This document shows positions 1 to 50,268 of a stretch of DNA of 50,421 nucleotides, in pieces. Where the stretch lies: positions 1 through 50,421 of IMG/VR virus record IMGVR_UViG_3300031974_001089. One strand, written 5' to 3'. Under the pieces are notes generated by a model that was given only the letters and a program-made list of their open reading frames with translations, made no database searches and was not told the origin of the DNA. This DNA comes from a virus. The first letter of the stretch is position 1; every line of letters starts with the position of its first letter. Position numbers and translations under genes: made by a program.

Positions 1-360
1 AGACATATTACCAACTGTTTCTCTGTTTTTATATGCATTGAGTTTATTTACAATGTAATCTGAACTTTGACCAGCAAGTTTAGGGAAGACTCCCATACCT
101 TGACCTTCTGCACCGTGACAAGCTGCACAACCACTCCATAGACCTCTAATAGAAGAGAATTCGTCTGCATTTGCAAGTTCTTGTTTTCTCTGTTCAATCT
201 CTGAAGCAGTTCCAAATTGTTCAACATAGTCAACATAACACTGACCCGTGCAACTATGTCCTCCAGTTCCACCTGTATATTCTAAATTTGGATATATCTT
301 AAATCCAAAAAACACACCTATTGCAAGTGTGCATAGTAATGCTTGTCCTAGTTCTCTCAT
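1..360 (-). CDS. Membrane-anchored class I cytochrome c, C-terminus cut by window edge
   Basis: Translating the minus strand from the ATG at 358-360 gives 120 codons with no stop, running off the window. Residues about 6-23 are a hydrophobic signal anchor. Residues 78-82 are Cys-Ala-Ala-Cys-His, the covalent heme c motif, followed by GAEGQGMG and PKLAGQSSDYIVNKLNAYK, which is typical of small c4/c553-type cytochromes. Met119 sits where the axial Met ligand is expected, just before the truncation. A second Cys pair (37 and 41) lacks the following His and is not a heme site. The domain would face the periplasm and carry electrons, possibly to or from a host oxidase. The start overlaps the upstream stop as TAATG. 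What is seen is the heme motif and anchor; the role during infection is inference. An overlapping frame at 48-272 has no recognisable features. Confidence 0.88.
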   Translation of the reverse strand, partial: MRELGQALLCTLAIGVFFGFKIYPNLEYTGGTGGHSCTGQCYVDYVEQFGTASEIEQRKQELANADEFSSIRGLWSGCAACHGAEGQGMGVFPKLAGQSSDYIVNKLNAYKNRETVGNMS

Positions 361-452
361 TATGATATTCCTGTAATTGATATAACGGACACCATGAAGA
401 TACCTACTAATGTAGTTATCTCCAAAGTATCTCTAAGTTTTTCGAAGTTCAT
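360..452 (-). CDS. Tiny membrane peptide (30 aa)
   Basis: A short frame begins at the ATG at 450-452 and ends in TAA at 360-362. It begins MNFEKLRDTLEI and continues with a hydrophobic stretch (residues about 13-28, TTLVGIFMVSVISITG), so it is a predicted single-pass membrane peptide. Its start overlaps the stop of the upstream 58-aa gene (ATGA), and its own stop overlaps the cytochrome c start (TAATG), so the three frames are positioned for translational coupling. I do not recognise a family. It may be a membrane partner of the cytochrome, or merely a coupling peptide. Confidence 0.5.
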   Translation of the reverse strand: MNFEKLRDTLEITTLVGIFMVSVISITGIS

Positions 453-625
453 AATATATTCCACATACTGAAATACATCACTATGAAGGGTAGTAAGAAG
501 GGAAGAGTCATCAGCACTAGAAATTCGATAGTGTCAACCAGTTTTCGTTTTGTTGGACGAATGATATGATTAACTTCTCTAGCTTTTCGTACCATGCTCT
601 TCGCAAAAAAAGTTGCTGTGGTCAT
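449..625 (-). CDS. Small membrane protein (58 aa), unknown
   Basis: The frame runs from the ATG at 623-625, preceded by an AGGAAAA ribosome-binding site, to TGA at 449-451. The N-terminal half is basic (MVRKAREVNHIIRPTKRK), followed by one strongly hydrophobic helix at about residues 34-54. This predicts a single-pass inner-membrane protein with the basic end in the cytoplasm. It is the first gene of the three-gene cluster leading to cytochrome c. No family is recognised. The reading frame is supported by its ribosome-binding site, its stop/start overlap with the next gene, and its membrane topology. Confidence 0.6.
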   Translation of the reverse strand: MTTATFFAKSMVRKAREVNHIIRPTKRKLVDTIEFLVLMTLPFLLPFIVMYFSMWNIL

Positions 626-709: not shown

Positions 710-1198
710 CTAATGAATCTTTTTTGGGTCGGTAGGTTTTATAGCTTCTTCAAACTCACTCTCTACTAGTTCCTCATAGAACTCATCAAATAAATCTTCG
801 TCTTTGACATTCTTAAGAATAGAGTCAACTGCTTTTTTCATGTATTCTCTTGATACACCTTTCAAGTCATTGGTTAATGGAATGGAACCTGTCTCCACCA
901 TCTTCAACCAGTTTGCAGAAGCTTCGTCATAGAACGGAATAAATTGAGAATTCATATTACTTCTATGTAAGACTTGGTCGAATGGAATTTTGACGATAGG
1001 GTCTTCACTCATAGGTGCATAAGGATAGAAGGTTGCAAGTGTTGAATTGATTGGTTGTTGAACCGATAAATGACATATCATAGGAAGTGTAACTTCGAGA
1101 CCTTCTGTTGTGTCTCTAACCATTCCTACAAACTCTGTACCAGTTTTAAGTTTGATAACTTCGTATCTTTGTTTAAGTAAGTCGTTTGGTGTTGCCAT
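710..1198 (-). CDS. Conserved T4-like marine phage protein with Sm-like N-terminus
   Basis: This is a 162-aa soluble protein. Residues about 12-46 (YEVIKLKTGTEFVGMVRDTT followed by GLEVTLPMICHL) read like the first strands of an Sm/Lsm barrel: a strand, a TG turn, a bent strand with G-x-V, then a D-x-x-x-G-hydrophobic strand. The C-terminal third is acidic and helical. The start overlaps the uvsW stop as TAATG, so the two are translationally coupled. A late box lies 53-60 bases upstream (1258-1251), inside the uvsW 3' end, so this gene can also be expressed alone. The Sm comparison is a pattern judgement, not a search result; function is unknown. Confidence 0.75.
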   Translation of the reverse strand: MATPNDLLKQRYEVIKLKTGTEFVGMVRDTTEGLEVTLPMICHLSVQQPINSTLATFYPYAPMSEDPIVKIPFDQVLHRSNMNSQFIPFYDEASANWLKMVETGSIPLTNDLKGVSREYMKKAVDSILKNVKDEDLFDEFYEELVESEFEEAIKPTDPKKIH

Positions 1199-2643
1199 TA
1201 GTCTAAGTCAAATTGTTTTATTTCGTATGAAAAATTTTCCTCGTTGTAAATATTTATACGTTCCTTAAGGTGACCAAGTGTGAAATTATCACATTGCAAA
1301 TCGTCTGCAATATCAAATAATCTCATTTCACTCTTACCTTCAGTTTTCCTTAGACCTCTACCAATAGATTGTAGATTCCTTATCCTTGATTTAGAAGGAC
1401 TTGCAAAAACTACATTATCAATTTTCTTTATATTAACTCCAGTAGAAAAAGTTCCGTATGACGCTAGTATGACACTATCGTTAGATTTTTCTACCACCTC
1501 TCTGACTGTTTCTCTGTCTTCTGTATCTGTTCCACCATAGACATAGTGTAAGTCCTTTACTCTTCCGTCTAACATAGGATATAAGACTTCACCATGTTTC
1601 TGTACATATTGGAACAACACTAAAGTATTACCTTTTAAACTTGCAACTAAATTTGTTATGAATTTGTTTCTACTATCATTCGACACCAAGTAATCCATTT
1701 CTTCTTGGTATGTCAATTTTTTCATTTTAGTATGACGAAGTATGACACAATCTATCTTCAAATTTGCAATTGTACCTTCTTCCATTAACTCGTATGACGT
1801 TATGACTTTTTTTACAGGGCCGAACAAACCTTCAAGTTGTAACCTATGAACTTCTGACCCGTCCAGTGTTCCAGTCGTTCCAAAACGAACACTAGTGTGT
1901 TTCATTTTCTCTAAGATACCTTTTAGTGTTTGTGCTTTGAATAAATGTGCTTCGTCCCCTATCACTACGTCAAATCCCTGTACAACTTCTTTAGGAGCTT
2001 TACTGAATGATTGCCATGTGGTGACCGTAATAGGTGCATCAAATACTTCTTGACCGTGATAGATTTTACAGATAGGTTCTTTGTATCCGTATTCTTTGAA
2101 ATCTTTTGACATTTGTTCTACCAATGAGGTAGTGGGAACGATAATAATAGTCTTACAATTAGGTAGAGACATTTCTCCTTCATACCACCTACACAACATA
2201 TAAATGATTAAAGACTTTCCACTTGCAGTTGGTGAAAGTAATAACTGTCTTCCGTATTGCACTGCAGTTTTGAATGCTTCTATTTGATAATCACGTGGTT
2301 GAAATGGAAGACCCAAGCCTGGGATTAGGTCGTCACCATTAATAAAGAAATCTACGTCTTCGTCTGTAATTGTTGTTTTGTCTCCGATTACTTCTTGTAT
2401 ACCACCAAACTCATAACCACGTTCTCTACAGAATTCGTCAACGTATGGAAGTAATCCAATATAGATTTTATTTGTCTTCATTGAGAAGAGTCTGACTTTA
2501 CCGTCCCAATACTTATTCTTATAAGAAGGCATAAATTTTGCGCCTGGGACTGTATAAGAAAAGAAGTCATATAAGTCTCTTGCAAGTCCATCATCACAAT
2601 GAACTTTCATAAAGACATCATCTAATTTTTCTACTGTAACCAT
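1198..2643 (-). CDS. uvsW: UvsW-like SF2 helicase
   Basis: In T4, UvsW unwinds branched DNA and R-loops and helps switch replication from origin-dependent to recombination-dependent initiation. This 481-aa protein has the Walker A loop SPTASGKS at residues 137-144, the DEAH box at 230-233, a TGTLDG motif III region near 257-262, and the motif VI signature QSIGRGLRK near the C-terminal end. The Q-motif-like RDYQ (117-120) precedes Walker A. The N-terminal about 110 residues correspond to the small DNA-binding domain typical of UvsW. Length is close to T4 UvsW (about 500). It lies downstream of uvsY with an oxygenase gene between them. Confidence 0.93.
   Translation of the reverse strand: MVTVEKLDDVFMKVHCDDGLARDLYDFFSYTVPGAKFMPSYKNKYWDGKVRLFSMKTNKIYIGLLPYVDEFCRERGYEFGGIQEVIGDKTTITDEDVDFFINGDDLIPGLGLPFQPRDYQIEAFKTAVQYGRQLLLSPTASGKSLIIYMLCRWYEGEMSLPNCKTIIIVPTTSLVEQMSKDFKEYGYKEPICKIYHGQEVFDAPITVTTWQSFSKAPKEVVQGFDVVIGDEAHLFKAQTLKGILEKMKHTSVRFGTTGTLDGSEVHRLQLEGLFGPVKKVITSYELMEEGTIANLKIDCVILRHTKMKKLTYQEEMDYLVSNDSRNKFITNLVASLKGNTLVLFQYVQKHGEVLYPMLDGRVKDLHYVYGGTDTEDRETVREVVEKSNDSVILASYGTFSTGVNIKKIDNVVFASPSKSRIRNLQSIGRGLRKTEGKSEMRLFDIADDLQCDNFTLGHLKERINIYNEENFSYEIKQFDLD
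1251..1258 (-). promoter_or_regulatory. T4-type late promoter box
   Basis: TATAAATA on the minus strand, within the 3' end of uvsW. T4 late promoters start 6 bases after this box, which gives an A at about 1245 and a leader of about 46 bases before the Sm-like gene. Confidence 0.5.
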
Positions 2644-2650
2644 ATTGGTT

Positions 2651-3328
2651 TTACTTGAAAGGAGTACCTAACAACCACCCTACTAGTGATGTTCGAGCTC
2701 CTCGTGTGACTGGGGTGACTTGGTGGTGAACGTCTGAAGGGAATAATAAAATACTTCCTCTTGTTTTTGCACTAAAGGGTGCAGTTCTTTTCATTGCATC
2801 TATACCTACAGATTTGTCACCTTGTTTTATTCTATCAAACATACTATGTGGTTCTAACCATTCGAAATGACCACCTTCATATTCATCGGGGTCTGATAAT
2901 TGAATGGTGCAACTTAACTTACGAATAAGGCCTTCTGTACCATGTACCTGTCCAACATGACCCGAATCTGTATGCCATGTATAGAAATCACCTTTTGTAT
3001 TAGGTTGTTCACTATATTGTGTAAATTGGAAATTTTCAAAATGACTTAAATCCCAAGTCCATGCATTATCTCCTTGTGCGAATTGAACTCCTTGTGCAAG
3101 TTTATCATGAAATTCTTGTGGTAACATTTCATGTGTTAACCATTTAACACTTGACCTTCTAATCTCATCATCAGCACGTCCTGATGCTTCTGCACTATCG
3201 GGGTCATTAGCTGCAAATCCAACTCTACCCTCTTCCCATTCTATTTTATTTGCACATGCGATTATAGAATCAACTTCTTGTGATGTAAAGAATGCCTCTG
3301 CAATCCAAACATAGTTTTGATATATCAT
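2651..3328 (-). CDS. PKHD-type 2OG-Fe(II) oxygenase
   Basis: A 225-aa enzyme of the PKHD hydroxylase (PiuC/P4H-like) type. It would use Fe(II), O2 and 2-oxoglutarate to hydroxylate a protein or small molecule. The double-stranded beta-helix signatures are present: His119-x-Asp121 in YTWHTD, a distal His202 in FPSDVHHQVTPV, and Arg212 for 2-oxoglutarate. A longer frame could start at 3355, but I chose the ATG at 3326-3328 because it overlaps the uvsY stop as TAATG, the junction used repeatedly in this genome. The gene sits between uvsY and uvsW, an unexpected metabolic insertion in the recombination module. Substrate is unknown. Confidence 0.87.
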   Translation of the reverse strand: MIYQNYVWIAEAFFTSQEVDSIIACANKIEWEEGRVGFAANDPDSAEASGRADDEIRRSSVKWLTHEMLPQEFHDKLAQGVQFAQGDNAWTWDLSHFENFQFTQYSEQPNTKGDFYTWHTDSGHVGQVHGTEGLIRKLSCTIQLSDPDEYEGGHFEWLEPHSMFDRIKQGDKSVGIDAMKRTAPFSAKTRGSILLFPSDVHHQVTPVTRGARTSLVGWLLGTPFK

Positions 3329-3771
3329 TATGACCCTGCCATGAATTTTCTCCAATCGATTGTATTCTTAATCGTTTGGTGTCTCCAAGTGATATTTTGC
3401 ATACACTCTTTGAGATAATCTATCGTTACTTTTAAATACTCAATCTTTGCATTGAGTTCTTGTATATCTTTATCTGAGTTATAGAAGATTTGTAAATCAG
3501 TTTTCATAATTTTCAATCCGTCTAAAGGGTCGTCTGACCAACCCAACTCTTTGATTTGTTCTTGAGACATTTTTCCGTTATACCACAACCACTTATCCTT
3601 TAGAAGTGTATCGTATTTGTATTGGTATTGTTTCATAACAAGTATCTTACTGGATAGTAAGTCTTGGTATTTTGCATGGAGTTTAGGTATTTCTAAAGAC
3701 GATTTATCTAGTTCGATATCGTCTATCTCACAATCCTTTTCCCACTGGCTCTTAATTTCATCTAATGTCAT
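3328..3771 (-). CDS. uvsY: UvsY-like recombination mediator
   Basis: In T4, UvsY loads UvsX recombinase on single-stranded DNA covered by gp32. This 147-aa protein is close to T4 UvsY (137 aa). It starts MTLDEIKSQWEKDCEID, has a central basic and aromatic region (KQYQYKYDTLLKDKWLWYNG), and ends in a helical segment with ITWRHQTIKNTIDWRKFMAG, matching the helical UvsY layout. The nearby uvsW gene supports the call. No clear Shine-Dalgarno sequence precedes the ATG; a small inverted repeat lies just upstream at 3782-3799. Confidence 0.85.
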   Translation of the reverse strand: MTLDEIKSQWEKDCEIDDIELDKSSLEIPKLHAKYQDLLSSKILVMKQYQYKYDTLLKDKWLWYNGKMSQEQIKELGWSDDPLDGLKIMKTDLQIFYNSDKDIQELNAKIEYLKVTIDYLKECMQNITWRHQTIKNTIDWRKFMAGS

Positions 3772-4936: not shown

Positions 4937-6232
4937 TTACAGAATGTTTGATACTGCAAATTTTCTGTAGTATTGGTTTGTTCCTGCTGAAGCAAGTCCG
5001 TCTGCTGGTGTTGAACCAACGAAAGGATTAGATACCATTCCGTATCTTGTTTTGAAACCAATTTTTGGTTGGAATGTATTCTCACCAACTGCACGAACCA
5101 TTTGTAATGGAACGTATGGGCAATAGAATAATCCAGCGTCATAAGGATTTGAACCTCTGTAACCAACTGTTAAGTAGTCTGAAGACGCATATGGGTCAAC
5201 GTATACTTTAACTCTTCCGTTTAATACACCAGCAAAAGTATTACCTGTGTCGTCAACGTTTAAGTTGGTTGAAAGAGCAGGTGCGTAATCTAATACACCA
5301 GCCATTGATAGTGCTGAAGCAACATCAGAAGAACAAAGAATAAAGTTTCCTTTTCCTCTTCTTGTTTCTTTAGCAATAACATTTGATTCTCTTTCGATTT
5401 GGAACAATAGTCCTTTGAACTTTTCTACAGACCATCTACCGTTAGCATCAACGTCCAAGTTGAAAGTACCAGCAACAGCTGTAGCAGCTGCACCTGTTTT
5501 CGCTTGGTTGTTAACACTTCTCACAACTTCCCTGTTTATTTCAGCAAGGATTTCTGATGATAGAATGTTTGCAAGTTCTGATTCTGCATCAAGACCGTGG
5601 ATTGCTTTGAGGTCTTGTGCTAATTCTAATGAATATTCCGCTTTAAGTGCTCTTGACTTTGCTGTCACTGTAGCTTTCTCGATTGAGAATGCCATTTCAG
5701 CAAAATGGTTTCCAGCACCATCACCTAGTGATTCTGCTGAAGCTGTAGACATACCCGCAGAAGTCTGTGACGCATAAGAACCATTGAATGGGTCTCCTGA
5801 GTGGTCGCTTCCTACTGAAGTTGATGTTGTTTGAGCAGATGCTGAGTAATCAGTTCTAGCTTCGTTATGTAAAGCTTCTGATGTATTCAGTCTATCAGCG
5901 TCAACGTCATCGTTATATCTTGCTTTCATAGCAAATATAAGTCCAGTTGGGCCGGTCATTGGTTGAACACCGCAAATGTCGTATGCAACGAGATTTGGCA
6001 TGGCACGTCTTACTAATGAAATCAAGATTGGATCCCAGTTAGAAATACCTGTACCTGTGGAATTTAAAGGTGCTGCTTCTGCAAGAGTAGCTCTGTCTTC
6101 GTTTAGAGCTTTTTCTTGGTTTTCAAGGATAACAGCTGTGACTGCACGTTTGTAGTTATCTTCGATTTTTGGTAAATCGGAGTGTTCTAGAATCGGCGAC
6201 CACTTATCTTGTAAGTTTTCTGATAAAAACAT
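4937..6232 (-). CDS. gp23: Major capsid protein gp23
   Basis: The main hexameric shell protein of T4-like heads, 431 aa, shorter than T4 gp23 (521) as is usual in marine relatives. The N-terminus MFLSENLQDKWSPILEH is characteristic. LAE at residues 50-52 followed by AAPLNSTG matches the T4 maturation site (cleavage after Glu65, before Ala-Ala-Pro), so the mature protein should start at Ala53 with about 379 residues. Later blocks include ISNWDPILISLVRRAMPNL, MTGPTGLIFAMKARY and GRVKVYVDPYA. An AAAGGAGA ribosome-binding site precedes the ATG. A strong terminator follows. gp22 lies immediately upstream. Confidence 0.97.
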   Translation of the reverse strand: MFLSENLQDKWSPILEHSDLPKIEDNYKRAVTAVILENQEKALNEDRATLAEAAPLNSTGTGISNWDPILISLVRRAMPNLVAYDICGVQPMTGPTGLIFAMKARYNDDVDADRLNTSEALHNEARTDYSASAQTTSTSVGSDHSGDPFNGSYASQTSAGMSTASAESLGDGAGNHFAEMAFSIEKATVTAKSRALKAEYSLELAQDLKAIHGLDAESELANILSSEILAEINREVVRSVNNQAKTGAAATAVAGTFNLDVDANGRWSVEKFKGLLFQIERESNVIAKETRRGKGNFILCSSDVASALSMAGVLDYAPALSTNLNVDDTGNTFAGVLNGRVKVYVDPYASSDYLTVGYRGSNPYDAGLFYCPYVPLQMVRAVGENTFQPKIGFKTRYGMVSNPFVGSTPADGLASAGTNQYYRKFAVSNIL

Positions 6233-6252: not shown

Positions 6253-7605
6253 TTAACCTAATGGTTTAAGTTTTGATAATGCCTCTGAATATCTAGCAAT
6301 TGAAGGGTCTAAAACAGGTTCTTTATCTTCTGATATTTCACCAGTTCCTTCTTCAATTATAGTGTCTTCAGAGATGGACTCACCTTCAACTGGGAAGTAA
6401 GCTTCTTTGATTTCTTGTACTTTCTCTTGAAAGTCTTCGATATCTTTAAAGTCTACACCATTTGATAATGATTCCATTTTCTCTTTTTGTGATTCAGATA
6501 AGTCTTTGCAGGCTTCTCTTATCACGTTACTTCTCTTAAGTTGGTCGTTTTCTTCAACAATTTCCATGTTTTTAGACACTTCACTGTCAAGTTTTTCTTC
6601 CATCTCATCGAGACGATTTGCGAGTTCATCGATAACGTTATACTTATCTTCAGGAACGTCAACATAGTGTTCTACGAACAATGTTTTTAATCCTTCGATA
6701 AAGTTTTCAGTCATCTCAGACCTCAAACCTCTTTCTATAGCAAGTTCGTTTTCTTTCGTCCACTCGTCTGCACAATAAGTAAGATACTTGTCAACTGCTT
6801 CCGCAAGGTCACCTTTAACTTTCTCTACTGAGGTTTTTAATTCTTCTGAGTATTGAGACTCAAGTTGTTCTTTAATTTCTGTAACTTTTGATGTTACAGC
6901 TGCTTTGAAGATTGTTTTAGCTTTTTCTTGATTTTCTTCTGAAAGGTCAAGTGCTTCTGAGATTGCAGATAGGTCGTCTTCTACTTCTATCTCGACTAAT
7001 GAAGATTCTAGAGCTGCAGAAGTTTCCTCGTCAACAGATTCTTCTTTGACTTCTTCTTCGTGTTCTTCTTCTTCTTCGTCTTCATACTTCTCAGCAAACT
7101 TAGCAACTTGTGCTTCGTCCATTGATTTAAGTGTTTCAACGATTTTTCTAGCGACTTCTGCTTTTGTCAAGGTTTCGTCAACTTCGTCTTCTGATATTTC
7201 ACCAAAAGTTTTTTGAAGTTCTTCTTTAGTCATTTCCTTCATATTGTTGACGATAGCTTTAATGTTCTCCATTTTAGATGTTGTAGCAACATCTTTCTTA
7301 GAATCTTCTTCACCTTCTTTGATTTTTTCCATCTTTTCAGGTTTGTCTGCACCTTTCTTCTGAGCGTCACCTTCGTTAGAAGGAGCTTTCTCAGCAGCTT
7401 TTACTGATGCAACAGCTTTGTCAACAGGATTTTCTTCAGGTTTGACGACATCACCCTTTCCGCTTTCGATTTTCTCAGCGTCGGATGACCCTTGTTTTAC
7501 TGGCTTCTTGTCACCATCTTCTGCTTTAGCGTTAGGCTGTTGACCTTCCTCTAATGCATCTACAGTTTCTTCAACTGTATCTAGGTTTGTTTCTAACTCT
7601 GCCAT
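6253..7605 (-). CDS. gp22: Prohead core scaffold gp22
   Basis: The internal scaffold around which the capsid assembles; in T4 it is digested by gp21. At 450 aa it is much longer than T4 gp22 (269). It is extremely acidic and helical, with a Glu run near residues 175-190, long predicted coiled coils (about 210-370), and a low-complexity Lys/Glu/Asp N-terminus. Its place between gp21 and gp23 fixes the identity. A late box 29 bases upstream and a GGAGA ribosome-binding site indicate strong late expression, probably shared with gp23, which starts 20 bases downstream. Confidence 0.9.
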   Translation of the reverse strand: MAELETNLDTVEETVDALEEGQQPNAKAEDGDKKPVKQGSSDAEKIESGKGDVVKPEENPVDKAVASVKAAEKAPSNEGDAQKKGADKPEKMEKIKEGEEDSKKDVATTSKMENIKAIVNNMKEMTKEELQKTFGEISEDEVDETLTKAEVARKIVETLKSMDEAQVAKFAEKYEDEEEEEHEEEVKEESVDEETSAALESSLVEIEVEDDLSAISEALDLSEENQEKAKTIFKAAVTSKVTEIKEQLESQYSEELKTSVEKVKGDLAEAVDKYLTYCADEWTKENELAIERGLRSEMTENFIEGLKTLFVEHYVDVPEDKYNVIDELANRLDEMEEKLDSEVSKNMEIVEENDQLKRSNVIREACKDLSESQKEKMESLSNGVDFKDIEDFQEKVQEIKEAYFPVEGESISEDTIIEEGTGEISEDKEPVLDPSIARYSEALSKLKPLG

Positions 7606-7633
7606 GTTTTTCTCCTGTTTGAGTTTACTTTTT

Positions 7634-7641
7634 TATTTATA
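7634..7641 (-). promoter_or_regulatory. T4-type late promoter box for gp22-gp23
   Basis: TATAAATA on the minus strand, with predicted +1 a G at 7628. The leader of about 23 bases contains AGGAGA. Confidence 0.75.
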
Positions 7642-7643
7642 TG

Positions 7644-8297
7644 TTAGAGACTCTCAACGAACCTCTTCCATTGTCTAATTGTGACTTCTTCCAACTTATT
7701 TGACTTCGCAGACCGTATTTCGTCCCGCATTTGGTCAAATTGTCTTGCAGTAAGTAATCCGTTCTCATATACCCACTCTGTACCTTCCATAATTCCGTTA
7801 ACGAAAGCTTCAGGTGCAGAAGGGTCTGCAACGATATCACCTGCTGTTGCAAGTTGAAAGTCATCTTTTACATATTGAGCACCACCTTTCTGTTCTAGTG
7901 AACCAAGTCCACGAGATGATACTCCCAATTTAGCACCGTCATCGATTAAATTTCTTACGATTTGACCGTTTGGTGTGCTTAAAATCTTTGCACGTCCCAC
8001 ATAATTGTTACCATCTTCTTCTAATTTGGTAATCATATGAGACACTTTGTCTAAATTGATAGTCGGCCCTTCGGGGTGTCCTAACTCACCGAATGCTCTA
8101 TCCTTTTCAACGAATTCTTTTACGTAACGTTTTACTTCTTTCTGCATAACCTCTTTAGGATATACTCTTCCGTTACGGTTTTTAATTTCGGATTGCATAA
8201 AAATACCTTCAATAAAGTATTCTTTTTGTCCTTTTTCGTTCTCCTCTATAATTACTGGAGAAACACTGTAGTCATTAAACTCTGATATTAATTTCAT
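7644..8297 (-). CDS. gp21: Prohead core protease gp21
   Basis: The serine protease that matures the T4-like prohead by cutting after (L/I)-x-Glu. This 217-aa protein matches T4 gp21 in length (212). The catalytic blocks are visible: GELGHPEG with His74, and LGVSSRGLG with the nucleophile at Ser127/Ser128, the herpesvirus-assemblin-like arrangement. The N-terminal block RNGRVYPKEVM is typical. The start overlaps the upstream 101-aa gene by 23 bases, suggesting coupled translation. Confidence 0.95.
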   Translation of the reverse strand: MKLISEFNDYSVSPVIIEENEKGQKEYFIEGIFMQSEIKNRNGRVYPKEVMQKEVKRYVKEFVEKDRAFGELGHPEGPTINLDKVSHMITKLEEDGNNYVGRAKILSTPNGQIVRNLIDDGAKLGVSSRGLGSLEQKGGAQYVKDDFQLATAGDIVADPSAPEAFVNGIMEGTEWVYENGLLTARQFDQMRDEIRSAKSNKLEEVTIRQWKRFVESL

Positions 8298-10857: not shown

Positions 10858-12846
10858 TTAAACTGCACTGTAAATTTCTTCAAACTCGACACCACTTCTA
10901 GCAGCAACAAAGTTTAAAGTTATAAAATTAATACTTCTAGCAGGTTTCACAAAGATAGAACATACAAATTCATTTCTATCTATAACTGTATCAGTGTTGT
11001 TAGTTTCATCACATAATACTGAGAAGTCTACTAGACCTCGTCTGTTCTTAACGTCTCTTAGGAAAGGTTCTACAGCAGCACGGAACTGAGCTCTTGTGAA
11101 TGCATCGTTGAATTCAAAGAGTTGTGATTTCGCTGCAACTGCGATTGCTTTTTCTAATACTATGAACAACCTTCTTACGTTGATTCTATCAAAGGCAGAA
11201 GGTGAAGTTAGTGCTGTTTTATCTCCAAATAATACTGTACCTTGGCCTGGGAAGGTAACAATTGGATTAATCCTTGCACGATATAAGTCATCTCTAGATG
11301 ATTGTGAAGGATTGAACGCAAGTTTAGTAATACCTAGGTATTGACCTCTTGAGAAACCAGCAGGTGAAAACCATGGGTCTCTTAATAAGTCTGACCTTGC
11401 CATAATACCTGCTGTATGACCGTTAGAGGGCACGTAGCAGTATTTGTCGTTATATCTATCATATTGGTACACCCAACCACTGTCTAACACTGCATATGAG
11501 GAAGAAGTGACTGAAGCGTAGTCAGCAATAACGTTTGTTGATTGTGTTGATTCACTTGATACACCAACTACTGATGCACGTCTAGGTGAACATATAACCA
11601 TGCAGTCTTTTCTGTTTTCTGCAATTTGAATAATTTGGTTAACAATTGAATTGTGGTCTGCAAGAATGTCTTGTGAAACTCCTGAACCATTATCTGTTCT
11701 TGTTGAACCTACGATTAAGAATGACACGTCTACTGTTTCTGCATCACCGAAATGGTCTTGATATGCACCATATTTCTCACCAGCAGTAGGAACTCTTCCG
11801 TCTACTCCACCACCAAGTGATGAAATTATAACTGAAGAAGGTCTTCCAAAAGCTGTTGTAGCAGATTGTAAGTGTGTTCTTGTTTCATTTGCAGTTGTAA
11901 GTAGGTCTGTTGAATGACCTGACCAGTAAATGTAGTCTGAACTTCTTGCAACTACGTTTTTGTAGTAGTTTGATTGTCCTTGACTGTCTTTACTATCTGA
12001 TGCAAGTGATACGAAACCATAAGTTTCTAAAATTGTGTTTTTAATTCCTGAGAATTCTCCGTCTTCGTCTGAAACTACTATGTGAATTTCGTCAGCTGAA
12101 CCACCAGCGGCAGTTGCAGTACCCGATGTAGCAGGTGCTTTATCGAATGAACTGTAGAATTCCCAATATCTATCTACGTTAGCACCTGAGGCAACTAATG
12201 CAGTTAGACCTGTTCCAGCAGGTTGACCGATTGCTTCAACTACTATTGAAGTTCCATCGGGTTTTGAAGTTACTCTGTATTCAGTATTATGACCAGCAAA
12301 CTTAACAATGTCTCTTACAAAGAAAACTGATGAATCAGTAACCGAAATGGTTGTCTGTCCAACTGACTCTTGTGAAGAGGTTGTTGTTACTGCATCATTG
12401 AAATATGCGTCTGAAGACCCACATACTGATACTTTTAATGAGTTTCCTAAAGAACCTGCGTATTTTGCAGTCCAATTACCAACTGTTCCAGCTTGTGAAC
12501 CGTCTTGGTAAGTATTGACATAATCGTCATTGTTCTTTAGTAATGCAGTCCCACTTGATGAGTTTGCATTGTTTAATTGAGATGTGTTGATTCTAACGAC
12601 TCTAAGTGATGAACCATACTTTAGAAATGCTTCCGCTGAATAGAAGTCCTCTGCTCCAGCGTCGGAATTAGCAGGTTGATAGAAATTATCAACTAAACCC
12701 TTTGAATCTGAAACTGTTACTACTTCACCAACAGGGCCCCATTGGAAATGTCCAGCAAATGCACCTGTAGTCGATGAAACGGCTGGAACAACATTAGTCA
12801 GGTCTATCTCGGAGACCTGAACGCCTGGTGATACTTGAAATGCCAT
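10858..12846 (-). CDS. gp18: Contractile tail sheath protein gp18
   Basis: The sheath subunit that contracts around the tube. It is 662 aa, almost equal to T4 gp18 (659). The N-terminal SPGVQVSEIDLTNVVP and C-terminal blocks (GDKTALTSPSAFDRINVRRL, VEPFLRDVKNRRGL) are sheath hallmarks; the C-terminal domain makes the handshake between subunits. The central region is variable and Ser/Thr/Gly rich. It has its own late promoter and an AGGAG ribosome-binding site. Confidence 0.96.
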   Translation of the reverse strand: MAFQVSPGVQVSEIDLTNVVPAVSSTTGAFAGHFQWGPVGEVVTVSDSKGLVDNFYQPANSDAGAEDFYSAEAFLKYGSSLRVVRINTSQLNNANSSSGTALLKNNDDYVNTYQDGSQAGTVGNWTAKYAGSLGNSLKVSVCGSSDAYFNDAVTTTSSQESVGQTTISVTDSSVFFVRDIVKFAGHNTEYRVTSKPDGTSIVVEAIGQPAGTGLTALVASGANVDRYWEFYSSFDKAPATSGTATAAGGSADEIHIVVSDEDGEFSGIKNTILETYGFVSLASDSKDSQGQSNYYKNVVARSSDYIYWSGHSTDLLTTANETRTHLQSATTAFGRPSSVIISSLGGGVDGRVPTAGEKYGAYQDHFGDAETVDVSFLIVGSTRTDNGSGVSQDILADHNSIVNQIIQIAENRKDCMVICSPRRASVVGVSSESTQSTNVIADYASVTSSSYAVLDSGWVYQYDRYNDKYCYVPSNGHTAGIMARSDLLRDPWFSPAGFSRGQYLGITKLAFNPSQSSRDDLYRARINPIVTFPGQGTVLFGDKTALTSPSAFDRINVRRLFIVLEKAIAVAAKSQLFEFNDAFTRAQFRAAVEPFLRDVKNRRGLVDFSVLCDETNNTDTVIDRNEFVCSIFVKPARSINFITLNFVAARSGVEFEEIYSAV

Positions 12847-32464: not shown

Positions 32465-33940
32465 TTATACTTGAGTGTTTGAAGGATTTTTAGAGAATCT
32501 TGCAGCGGGGACTGTTTGGTGTATTTTCTCGGGTGTAGAGTTTTCATTTGTATAAATCTCTTGAACCTTTCTTACAGTTCCACCGTCATTCAAATAAACT
32601 CCCTTCACTTTGGCAACTGGGCCGATACTTCTAGTTGTTGTATATGGTGTCTGATATATGTATGGTGACCTATGTTGATAATTTACTTGGTAAGGTGTCT
32701 GATAAATGTTAGGTTGTCTTGCAACATTTTGTGTACTTGTTTGTGCATTCACTGGGTTTCTATATGTGAATGGTGACCTAGTCTGATAAATTATAGGTTG
32801 TCTAGCGTTTGCAATGTATGGATTTGATTCTTGTGCATTAACAGTTTTTTGAGCAGTTGTTTGTGAACTTACATTTGCAATCGGTGTTTGATTATTAAGA
32901 GGCTGTCTATGTTGATAAGTAAACGGTTGTCTATGTTGATAGATTACTGGTTGTCTTACAGGTTGCTGATATTGATAGATTAATGGTTGTCGTGCATTTC
33001 TAATATTAGGTTCTTGACCTTGTGCAGTTGCAATAGGTGTTGTAAACGGACTCTGAAACGTAAATGGTTGTTGTGCATTTACAGGATTCGAGGAACGATA
33101 TATTGTATAAGGTTGTTGTGTAGCTGGTGCAATATATGGATACGGTATATTTAATCTAACATTCTCACCGAGATAGATATATGGGAGCTGATAGAAACCA
33201 GTCGCGGCACCACCTGCTACTGGTGTTCTAGCGGGTTGTAAATACCCTTGTGCAATCACTGGAGTTCTAGCTTCTGTAAACCATTGTTTACTTCCAGTAA
33301 CGTCATAACCGTCACCCTGAGGCCCTTGATAAAAATCTATTTCTTCGGGGTCAGCAAATTTTGCTTGTTGTATTTGATACCAATAGATAAATGGTGAACG
33401 TGCAAACCCAACCTGTTGATAAGAAACTGGGCCGACATTCTGATACGTGAATGGATTTCTAGCATCCACAGGTTGTCTAGCAGGTTGCTGATACGAGTAA
33501 GGAAATGGAGACCTGTATTGGTATGTAAATGGACTTTGTTTACTTACATTTGAAATAGGTGTTGTAAATGGACTTTGTTTACTTACATTTGCTTGATTAG
33601 TTTGTCCATTAGCAATATAAGGACTTTGTGTCGTACTTGGTTGTCTATATGAATAAATTGCTGGGTGTTGATAAGTCACCTGATATGTAAAAGGTGACTG
33701 ACTTTGTGCTTGATATGTAAATGGAGTTTGTTTGTTTACATTAGTTAAAGGTTGTTGTCCAGCAACTGGCGACCTATAAGTTGAAGGTGTTTGACTCGGA
33801 CTTCTATATGAGGTCTGAGAACTCGCAGGAGTTCGTTTTACTATCTGTTTCGTTTCATTAGACTGAGCAGAAGCAGGTGTTTGACCTTGATACGGTTGTT
33901 GTATCGTTGACCCTATATTAATGTATATTTCGTCTGACAT
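32465..33940 (-). CDS. Pro-Phe-Thr-Tyr repeat protein 3
   Basis: At 491 aa this is the largest of three repeat proteins. It consists of short Pro-led steps (SPFTYQ, TPFTYQ, RQPVIYQH, NPVNAQ, SPYIANGQ) interrupted at about residues 200-280 by a non-repeat insert with PEEIDFYQGPQGDGYD and QLPYIYLGENVRLNIPYPYI. The C-terminal about 50 residues (VAKVKGVYLNDGGTVRKVQE, then IYTNENSTPEKIHQT) form a small module related in pattern to the VKTPxGWN module at the N-terminus of repeat protein 1. There are no Cys. A GAGATG ribosome-binding site is weak. Confidence 0.78.
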   Translation of the reverse strand: MSDEIYINIGSTIQQPYQGQTPASAQSNETKQIVKRTPASSQTSYRSPSQTPSTYRSPVAGQQPLTNVNKQTPFTYQAQSQSPFTYQVTYQHPAIYSYRQPSTTQSPYIANGQTNQANVSKQSPFTTPISNVSKQSPFTYQYRSPFPYSYQQPARQPVDARNPFTYQNVGPVSYQQVGFARSPFIYWYQIQQAKFADPEEIDFYQGPQGDGYDVTGSKQWFTEARTPVIAQGYLQPARTPVAGGAATGFYQLPYIYLGENVRLNIPYPYIAPATQQPYTIYRSSNPVNAQQPFTFQSPFTTPIATAQGQEPNIRNARQPLIYQYQQPVRQPVIYQHRQPFTYQHRQPLNNQTPIANVSSQTTAQKTVNAQESNPYIANARQPIIYQTRSPFTYRNPVNAQTSTQNVARQPNIYQTPYQVNYQHRSPYIYQTPYTTTRSIGPVAKVKGVYLNDGGTVRKVQEIYTNENSTPEKIHQTVPAARFSKNPSNTQV

Positions 33941-50260: not shown

Positions 50261-50268
50261 TATTTATA
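50261..50268 (-). promoter_or_regulatory. Late promoter box abutting gp25 start
   Basis: TATAAATA, five bases, ATG; predicted +1 is the A at 50255. It stands directly after the stop of the truncated upstream gene. Confidence 0.72.

Follow-up and report, generated by a model that had tools for sequence, protein, structure and literature searches.

A membrane-anchored class I cytochrome c predicted from the genomes of T4-like phages

The cytochrome gene and its neighbourhood

The window (the whole IMG/VR record analysed, 50,421 bases) carries at its left edge, on the minus strand (1..360), the first 120 of the 147 codons of a gene predicted to encode a membrane-anchored class I cytochrome c; the contig edge truncates the rest. 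The open reading frame (360..1, left end open) begins with MRELGQALLCTLAIGVFFGFKIYP and specifies a hydrophobic N-terminus, CTGQC at residues 37-41 and CAACH at residues 78-82, the latter as an earlier sequence-only reading had placed it on the reverse strand. Two other IMG/VR contigs (L002 and L006) encode exactly the same 120 residues and complete the protein to 147 amino acids. The residues past the window edge are STMWAQAGMLSDEDINMIGKFIEVELK, followed by a stop codon, with one residue different in L006. Because both contigs match all 120 residues and read on to this stop, no frameshift or stop lies just past the left edge, and the domain extends leftward as that reading had expected. Its suggestion that an overlapping frame hides the gene does not hold: the overlapping ORF (48..272, minus strand, 74 amino acids) is shorter than the cytochrome ORF, which the contig edge merely truncates.

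Immediately before the cytochrome, a 30 amino acid single-TM ORF (MNFEKLRDTLEITTLVGIFMVSVISITGIS; 360..452, minus strand), read directly from the window, ends in a TAA that overlaps the cytochrome ATG (TAATG), an arrangement that suggests coupled translation of the two. Similar ORFs occur in relatives both with and without the cytochrome. Next to it are a 58 amino acid single-TM ORF of this small-membrane-protein cluster (449..625, minus strand) and a gene for a 162 amino acid protein (710..1198, minus strand), which gave no match in Pfam, has 120 viral relatives and serves as the syntenic marker of the slot. The upstream flank is formed by a UvsW-like helicase (1198..2643, minus strand) that matches the UvsW of HTVC008M. 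A T4-type late-promoter-like motif, TATAAATA (1251..1258, minus strand), lies upstream of the 162 amino acid gene and of the run of small ORFs and cytochrome, and suggests that this run may be transcribed late. Across the window, TATAAATA/CATAAATA motifs number 16 on the minus (coding) strand versus one on the plus strand; such sites (for example at 50268, 43639, 32459, 12893, 7641 and 1258) mostly stand directly before genes. A 2OG-Fe(II) oxygenase (2651-3355, minus strand; PF13640, 51.8 bits) has UvsY on one side and UvsW on the other.

The major capsid protein gp23 (4937..6232, minus strand) is 65.8% identical to that of Melnitz and 65.4% to that of HTVC008M in tblastn comparisons, and its sequence identifies the window as part of a T4-like (Kyanoviridae-related) phage. 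Judged by this protein, the cultured phages nearest to the window phage are Melnitz, which infects OM43, and HTVC008M and Mosig, which infect SAR11, rather than cyanophages. The cytochrome slot lies between uvsW and the 162 amino acid gene on one side and gp55 on the other, and is thus outside the virion module to which the gene had previously been assigned.

Architecture and class of the predicted protein

The protein is predicted to have three parts. An N-terminal transmembrane helix or signal anchor (residues 2-25; 286..357, minus strand) is hydrophobic, is preceded by an Arg and is modelled with a pLDDT of about 90 for residues 1-20; in several relatives a signal-peptide-like start replaces this anchor-type N-terminus. 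It is followed by a periplasmic linker or helical spacer of about 41 residues (26-66; 163..285, minus strand), in which C37-x3-C41-Y42 are invariant columns of the alignments, and by a single heme domain of about 80 residues (67-147) with the heme-attachment motif CAACH (residues 78-82; 115..129, minus strand). We rejected lipoprotein anchoring, as an LLGC-like stretch is found in some members only, is unconserved and is positioned too early.

Pfam PF00034 matches the 120 amino acid fragment with 30.3 bits and the 147 amino acid protein with 36.9 bits, versus a gathering score of 21.3. It also matches all 24 members of a diverse phage alignment, with the window's own protein over the cut-off. 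A search of PDB sequences with the fragment retrieved cytochromes c552, c4 and c554, and the 24-member profile matched 8yts, 2zzs, 1h1o, 8uf3, 1etp and 6q2u with 65-73 bits. The CxxCH heme-binding motif is present, and its C78, C81 and H82 are invariant in 53 of 53 sequences. By itself the motif is not significant (two six-frame matches in the window versus about 3.4 in shuffled sequences). Since this count is at chance level, we base the assignment on the HMM score together with the conserved family and the fold. The 147 residues contain only one CxxCH, and the two tandem heme domains of cytochrome c4 are absent.

Among the 24 phage proteins, C37, C41, Y42, C78, C81, H82, M119 and M123 are invariant. 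The sequence-only reading had proposed Met119 as a candidate axial ligand. When membrane-anchored cellular homologues are added, however, column 119 is Gln in them and M123 is still invariant; Met123 also shares its column with a Met in 8yts and in 2zzs, structures in which column 119 is His or Leu, respectively. We therefore rejected Met119, and the alignments make Met123, just beyond the window edge, the most likely axial ligand.

An AlphaFold2 model built from 53 sequences has a mean pLDDT of 86.1 and shows helices at residues 2-25, 37-49 and 52-65, after which the cytochrome domain starts near residue 67; an earlier model from 24 sequences was weaker (pLDDT 63.6). In the model, residues 67-147 adopt the all-helical cytochrome c fold of 8yts, 1cno and 2zzs. 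In VIA-align comparisons the model superposes on 8yts with Z 14.4 and 1.4 Å over 81 residues, on 2zzs with Z 12.7 and 1.7 Å, and on 1cno with Z 12.7. For 8smr_K, the c4 chain in the bc1-cbb3 supercomplex of P. aeruginosa, the values are Z 12.1 and 1.6 Å. These c4, c552, c554 and c546-556 chains (1etp, 8smr_K, 1cno, 2zzs and 8yts) share the heme-domain fold at about 28-38% identity and 1.4-1.7 Å, but they align with phage residues 66-147 only, not with the anchor or the CxxxC linker. Further, cytochrome c4 is diheme and c552, c554 and c546-556 are small soluble proteins, whereas the phage protein is monoheme and anchored. A structure search of BFVD returned no significant viral homologue, and the best match in PHROGs was only phrog_4101 at E 0.05. 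The profile score and the modelled fold both bear out the earlier assignment, and we regard the protein as a confirmed membrane-anchored class I cytochrome c, by sequence and model, with predicted heme binding.

Viral family, optional cassette and cellular relatives

Scanning IMG/VR with the window protein revealed 115 matching viral loci. In seven contigs (L163, L164, L168, L171, L173, L205 and L208) the genes run gp20-gp21-gp22-gp23-...-UvsY-2OG oxygenase-UvsW-cytC-gp55-gp47-gp46, so that phage hallmark genes flank the cytochrome on both sides; in contigs read closely, the UvsW-cytC interval contains a gene for 148-162 amino acids and small TM ORFs. In a second context (L176, L178, L182, L216 and L083) the cytochrome lies between nrdB and glutaredoxin, overlapping the nrdB stop or starting just downstream, and in L176 overlapping one or both neighbours. 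Small TM proteins join this arrangement as nrdB-small TM protein-cytC-grx in G010 and nrdB-cytC-small TM protein-grx in L085. A third context is found in the 130-kb record G002, where the cytochrome adjoins a ferritin-family gene. G002 has no Gp23 match at threshold and is more distant, with 22 of 159 ORFs matching HTVC008M. In a phage lineage lacking a Gp23 match, the ferritin-family gene (PF00210, 61 bits) lies directly downstream of cytC, at L179 (10457-10894). Given the uvsW-gp55, nrd and ferritin contexts, the cytochrome clade occupies at least three places and seemingly at least two phage lineages.

A 57-68 amino acid single-TM protein with the motif VEVHPMKQ (EVHPMKQVAVMSVVQVLVFGFMLLSFW) adjoins the cytochrome in L168 (10444-10647), L085 (2013-2219) and G010 (32557-32715). 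It spans the uvsW-gp55 and nrd contexts, occurs also without the cytochrome and gave no match in Pfam; it is possibly a membrane partner of the cytochrome. Four loci (L083, L084, L085 and L086) sit in MAGs assigned to Sphingobacteriales, Synechococcus and Planctomycetaceae. Because those that were read have a phage-type cytC and phage neighbours (NrdB and others), they look like phage DNA mis-binned with cells. In HTVC008M, I899_gp068 (L225, 1809-2450) is annotated as ferrochelatase and has a homologue in L176 (7898-8908). We rejected a "ferrochelatase next to cytochrome c" and claim no link to heme synthesis, since the gp068 homologue has 2OG-Fe(II)-oxygenase-like HxD...H motifs and no Pfam match, making the annotation doubtful.

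Catalogued phages lack the gene: a tblastn search of 50,697 phage records with the window protein came back empty at E 0.01, and a relative as query gave only insignificant matches (E 1 or worse) in phage records at an E limit of 10. In the uvsW-gp55 slot of Melnitz and HTVC008M, no cytochrome is annotated. Even within the window's lineage the gene is dispensable, because more than half of the scorable loci are without it. Of 80 loci found via the 162 amino acid gene, 61 could be scored; 27 have the cytochrome and 34 run to gp55 without it. One clean empty site, L333 compared with L331, has about 83-87% identity beside the insertion and is near-identical further downstream, and the segment occupied by the cytochrome is bounded by a shared TCATAATG and the beginning of the following small TM ORF. 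The cytochrome is therefore an optional cassette in this lineage.

Other electron-transfer genes occur in the same slot. An alternative oxidase occupies it in L358 (5495-6058) and is 88% identical to the L178 protein (11191-11769, plus strand; 233 bits versus PF01786), whose gene lies 0.75 kb downstream of cytC in L178, as its counterpart does in L026. The L026 gene spans 7191-7769, and L084 (9399-9971) has another one near cytC or in its slot; together with L358 these are 88-100% identical to that of L178. Phage C48C1 (OQ984149, 26249-26815) encodes a homologue with 61% identity that is annotated as hypothetical. A two-cluster [4Fe-4S] ferredoxin (44 bits versus Fer4_7) lies between the 162 amino acid gene and gp55 in L370 (4472-4729), with equivalents in L371-L375; these six loci have no cytochrome.

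The closest cellular proteins with the same three-part architecture come from marine Pseudomonadales, including Halieaceae (L258-L260 and L291-L317). These monoheme cytochromes share with the phage protein an N-terminal anchor, a CxGECYxxW/Y-type linker, a CxACHG heme domain and an MW/MY axial-Met motif; the Halieaceae homologue, for instance, has 145 amino acids, a TM anchor, CVGECYxxW, CIACHG and SAMMW. They are homologous to the window protein over nearly full length at about 27-37% identity, but their genes are not in phage contexts and the phage proteins form a separate long-branch clade. Among 391 genomes of the same order as the Halieaceae genome G027, 28 match at E≤1e-15 with 41-90% identity to the query, most of them over nearly full length, and in a phylum-wide sample only G027 matches from the linker onward. 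No conserved bc1 or oxidase gene was found in the neighbourhoods of the cellular homologues, whose metabolic role is putative.

In a tree from 148 columns, which is therefore coarse, a long branch (1.11 changes per site) leads to a single cluster of the 43 phage sequences (100/99), which neighbours 27 membrane-anchored cellular sequences (98/86). The tree thus places the phage group beside anchored cellular cytochromes; with its long branch, that group falls outside the cellular sequences, and the tree therefore fails to assign a host. Median dN/dS among the phage sequences is 0.22 (218 pairs), with 0.18 in the heme domain and 0.44 in the TM helix; these values are approximate, as dS is about 1. 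By this sequence measure, the phage cytochrome is kept under purifying selection. Viral synteny, the HMM match, the fold and purifying selection, along with the existence of a similarly built cellular family, support the original claim of a phage-encoded, membrane-anchored cytochrome c.

A proposed role in host respiration and its rivals

We propose that the gene is probably an auxiliary metabolic gene encoding a phage version of a periplasm-facing anchored class I cytochrome c, matured by the host, that shuttles electrons from the bc1 complex to a terminal oxidase and sustains respiration for replication. The host Sec and Ccm systems would place the protein in the inner membrane and load it with heme at C78 and C81, His82 and Met123 serving as the axial ligands. 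The heme domain, tethered in this way, could then move electrons from cytochrome bc1 to the terminal oxidase, as c4 and cytochrome cy do, so that respiration and the supply of ATP and proton-motive force would continue after host gene expression stops and support phage replication. This scheme assumes that the host possesses bc1, cytochrome c oxidase and Ccm, and we infer heme loading, topology and location, redox partners and benefit to the phage. A manipulation of host respiration during infection, as first suggested for this gene, is plausible.

We favour a tethered respiratory shuttle because the protein has a cy-like architecture with a linker of about 41 residues and the fold of the c4 carrier that is part of the bc1-cbb3 supercomplex (8smr). 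Cytochrome cy of Rhodobacter capsulatus (CycY) consists of a 30-residue TM helix, a 69-residue linker and a 100-residue domain and shuttles electrons between bc1 and cbb3; with about 45 residues, a linker still allows proficient respiratory transfer (PMC7876108). Both proteins thus combine a TM anchor, a flexible linker and one heme domain, with a longer linker and larger domain in cy. The likeness is architectural, since the profile search against PDB sequences listed no cy protein at E≤0.001; the CcoH/cy chain 6xkw_p matched the model only with a Foldseek E of 0.46.

Small c-type cytochromes can also feed peroxidases. The protein could thus serve detoxification from the periplasm, donating electrons for example to a cytochrome c peroxidase and limiting oxidative stress in infected cells, and in one lineage it does lie beside a ferritin-family gene. 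We consider this unlikely, as no peroxidase gene was noticed adjoining cytC in the neighbourhoods read, and the membrane tether and the co-carried alternative oxidase and ferredoxin suit a respiratory chain better. It is rather improbable that the protein is a fixed CcoP/CcoO-like subunit that replaces or adds to part of a terminal oxidase instead of shuttling: TIGR00782 (ccoP) matches 23 of 24 members weakly and the 3mk7_C heme domain gives Z 7.6, but the window's protein scores 18.4 bits, far under the cut-off of 179.95, it has one heme rather than two, and its sequence and fold are nearer to c4, c554 and c552 carriers.

The position directly between nrdB and glutaredoxin in one large context, with overlaps in L176, might point to ribonucleotide reduction or thiol redox instead of respiration. 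This is very unlikely, given that c-type heme attachment demands a periplasmic domain whereas ribonucleotide reductase and glutaredoxin are cytosolic, and that the window's lineage carries the cytochrome without nrd neighbours. Metabolic genes in viromes can be contaminants (PMC3877843), and the gene could be a non-functional hitchhiker or cellular DNA misassembled into viral contigs. That possibility is largely refuted and now extremely improbable: the gene sits among phage hallmark genes in many contigs, is monophyletic away from cells, has a dN/dS of about 0.2 and shows clean presence or absence in otherwise matching phage sequence. We give just as little credence to a virion component; the gene shares its strand with structural genes and has a late-type motif upstream, yet the protein has a membrane anchor, is missing from close relatives and is encoded outside the structural modules.

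Cyanophages carry electron-transfer cargo, including plastocyanin, ferredoxin, PTOX and NDH genes. The cargo described here is alike in being a phage-borne carrier or oxidase of a host energy chain, with alternative oxidase and ferredoxin also found in slot relatives; it differs in that a c-type heme protein depends on Ccm and the nearest cultured phages infect heterotrophs. By this analogy, the phage cytochrome is best read as what would be the respiratory counterpart of cyanophage plastocyanin. Tentatively, and with somewhat more doubt than confidence, we suggest that an exchangeable respiratory module travels with T4-like phages that infect marine heterotrophs: in the window's lineage the slot, set among small conserved membrane proteins, takes cytochrome c, alternative oxidase or ferredoxin, the same cytochrome appears in nrd operons of related phages, and the parts would jointly rebuild electron flow from quinol to O2. 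Viral links of such genes have been described as a putative multiheme c in a microvirus, annotated by fold (PMC10190252), and as cbb3 CcoN reads from the viral size fraction, which are metagenome sequences (PMC3474794); neither report concerns a conserved family of monoheme carriers in tailed phages. The open-access literature and phage records that we searched contain no report of such a family in T4-like phages.

Since none of the 50,697 catalogued phage genomes matches, culture-based work would miss this gene. The phages that bear it probably infect marine heterotrophs. The best-known cases of phages controlling host energy metabolism concern cyanophages and photosynthesis. If our reading is true, a conserved and recurrent cytochrome c, joined in some relatives by an alternative oxidase, would extend such control to aerobic respiration and imply that these phages depend on host heme-c maturation. 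The respiratory shuttle predicts that infection maintains or re-routes O2 uptake.
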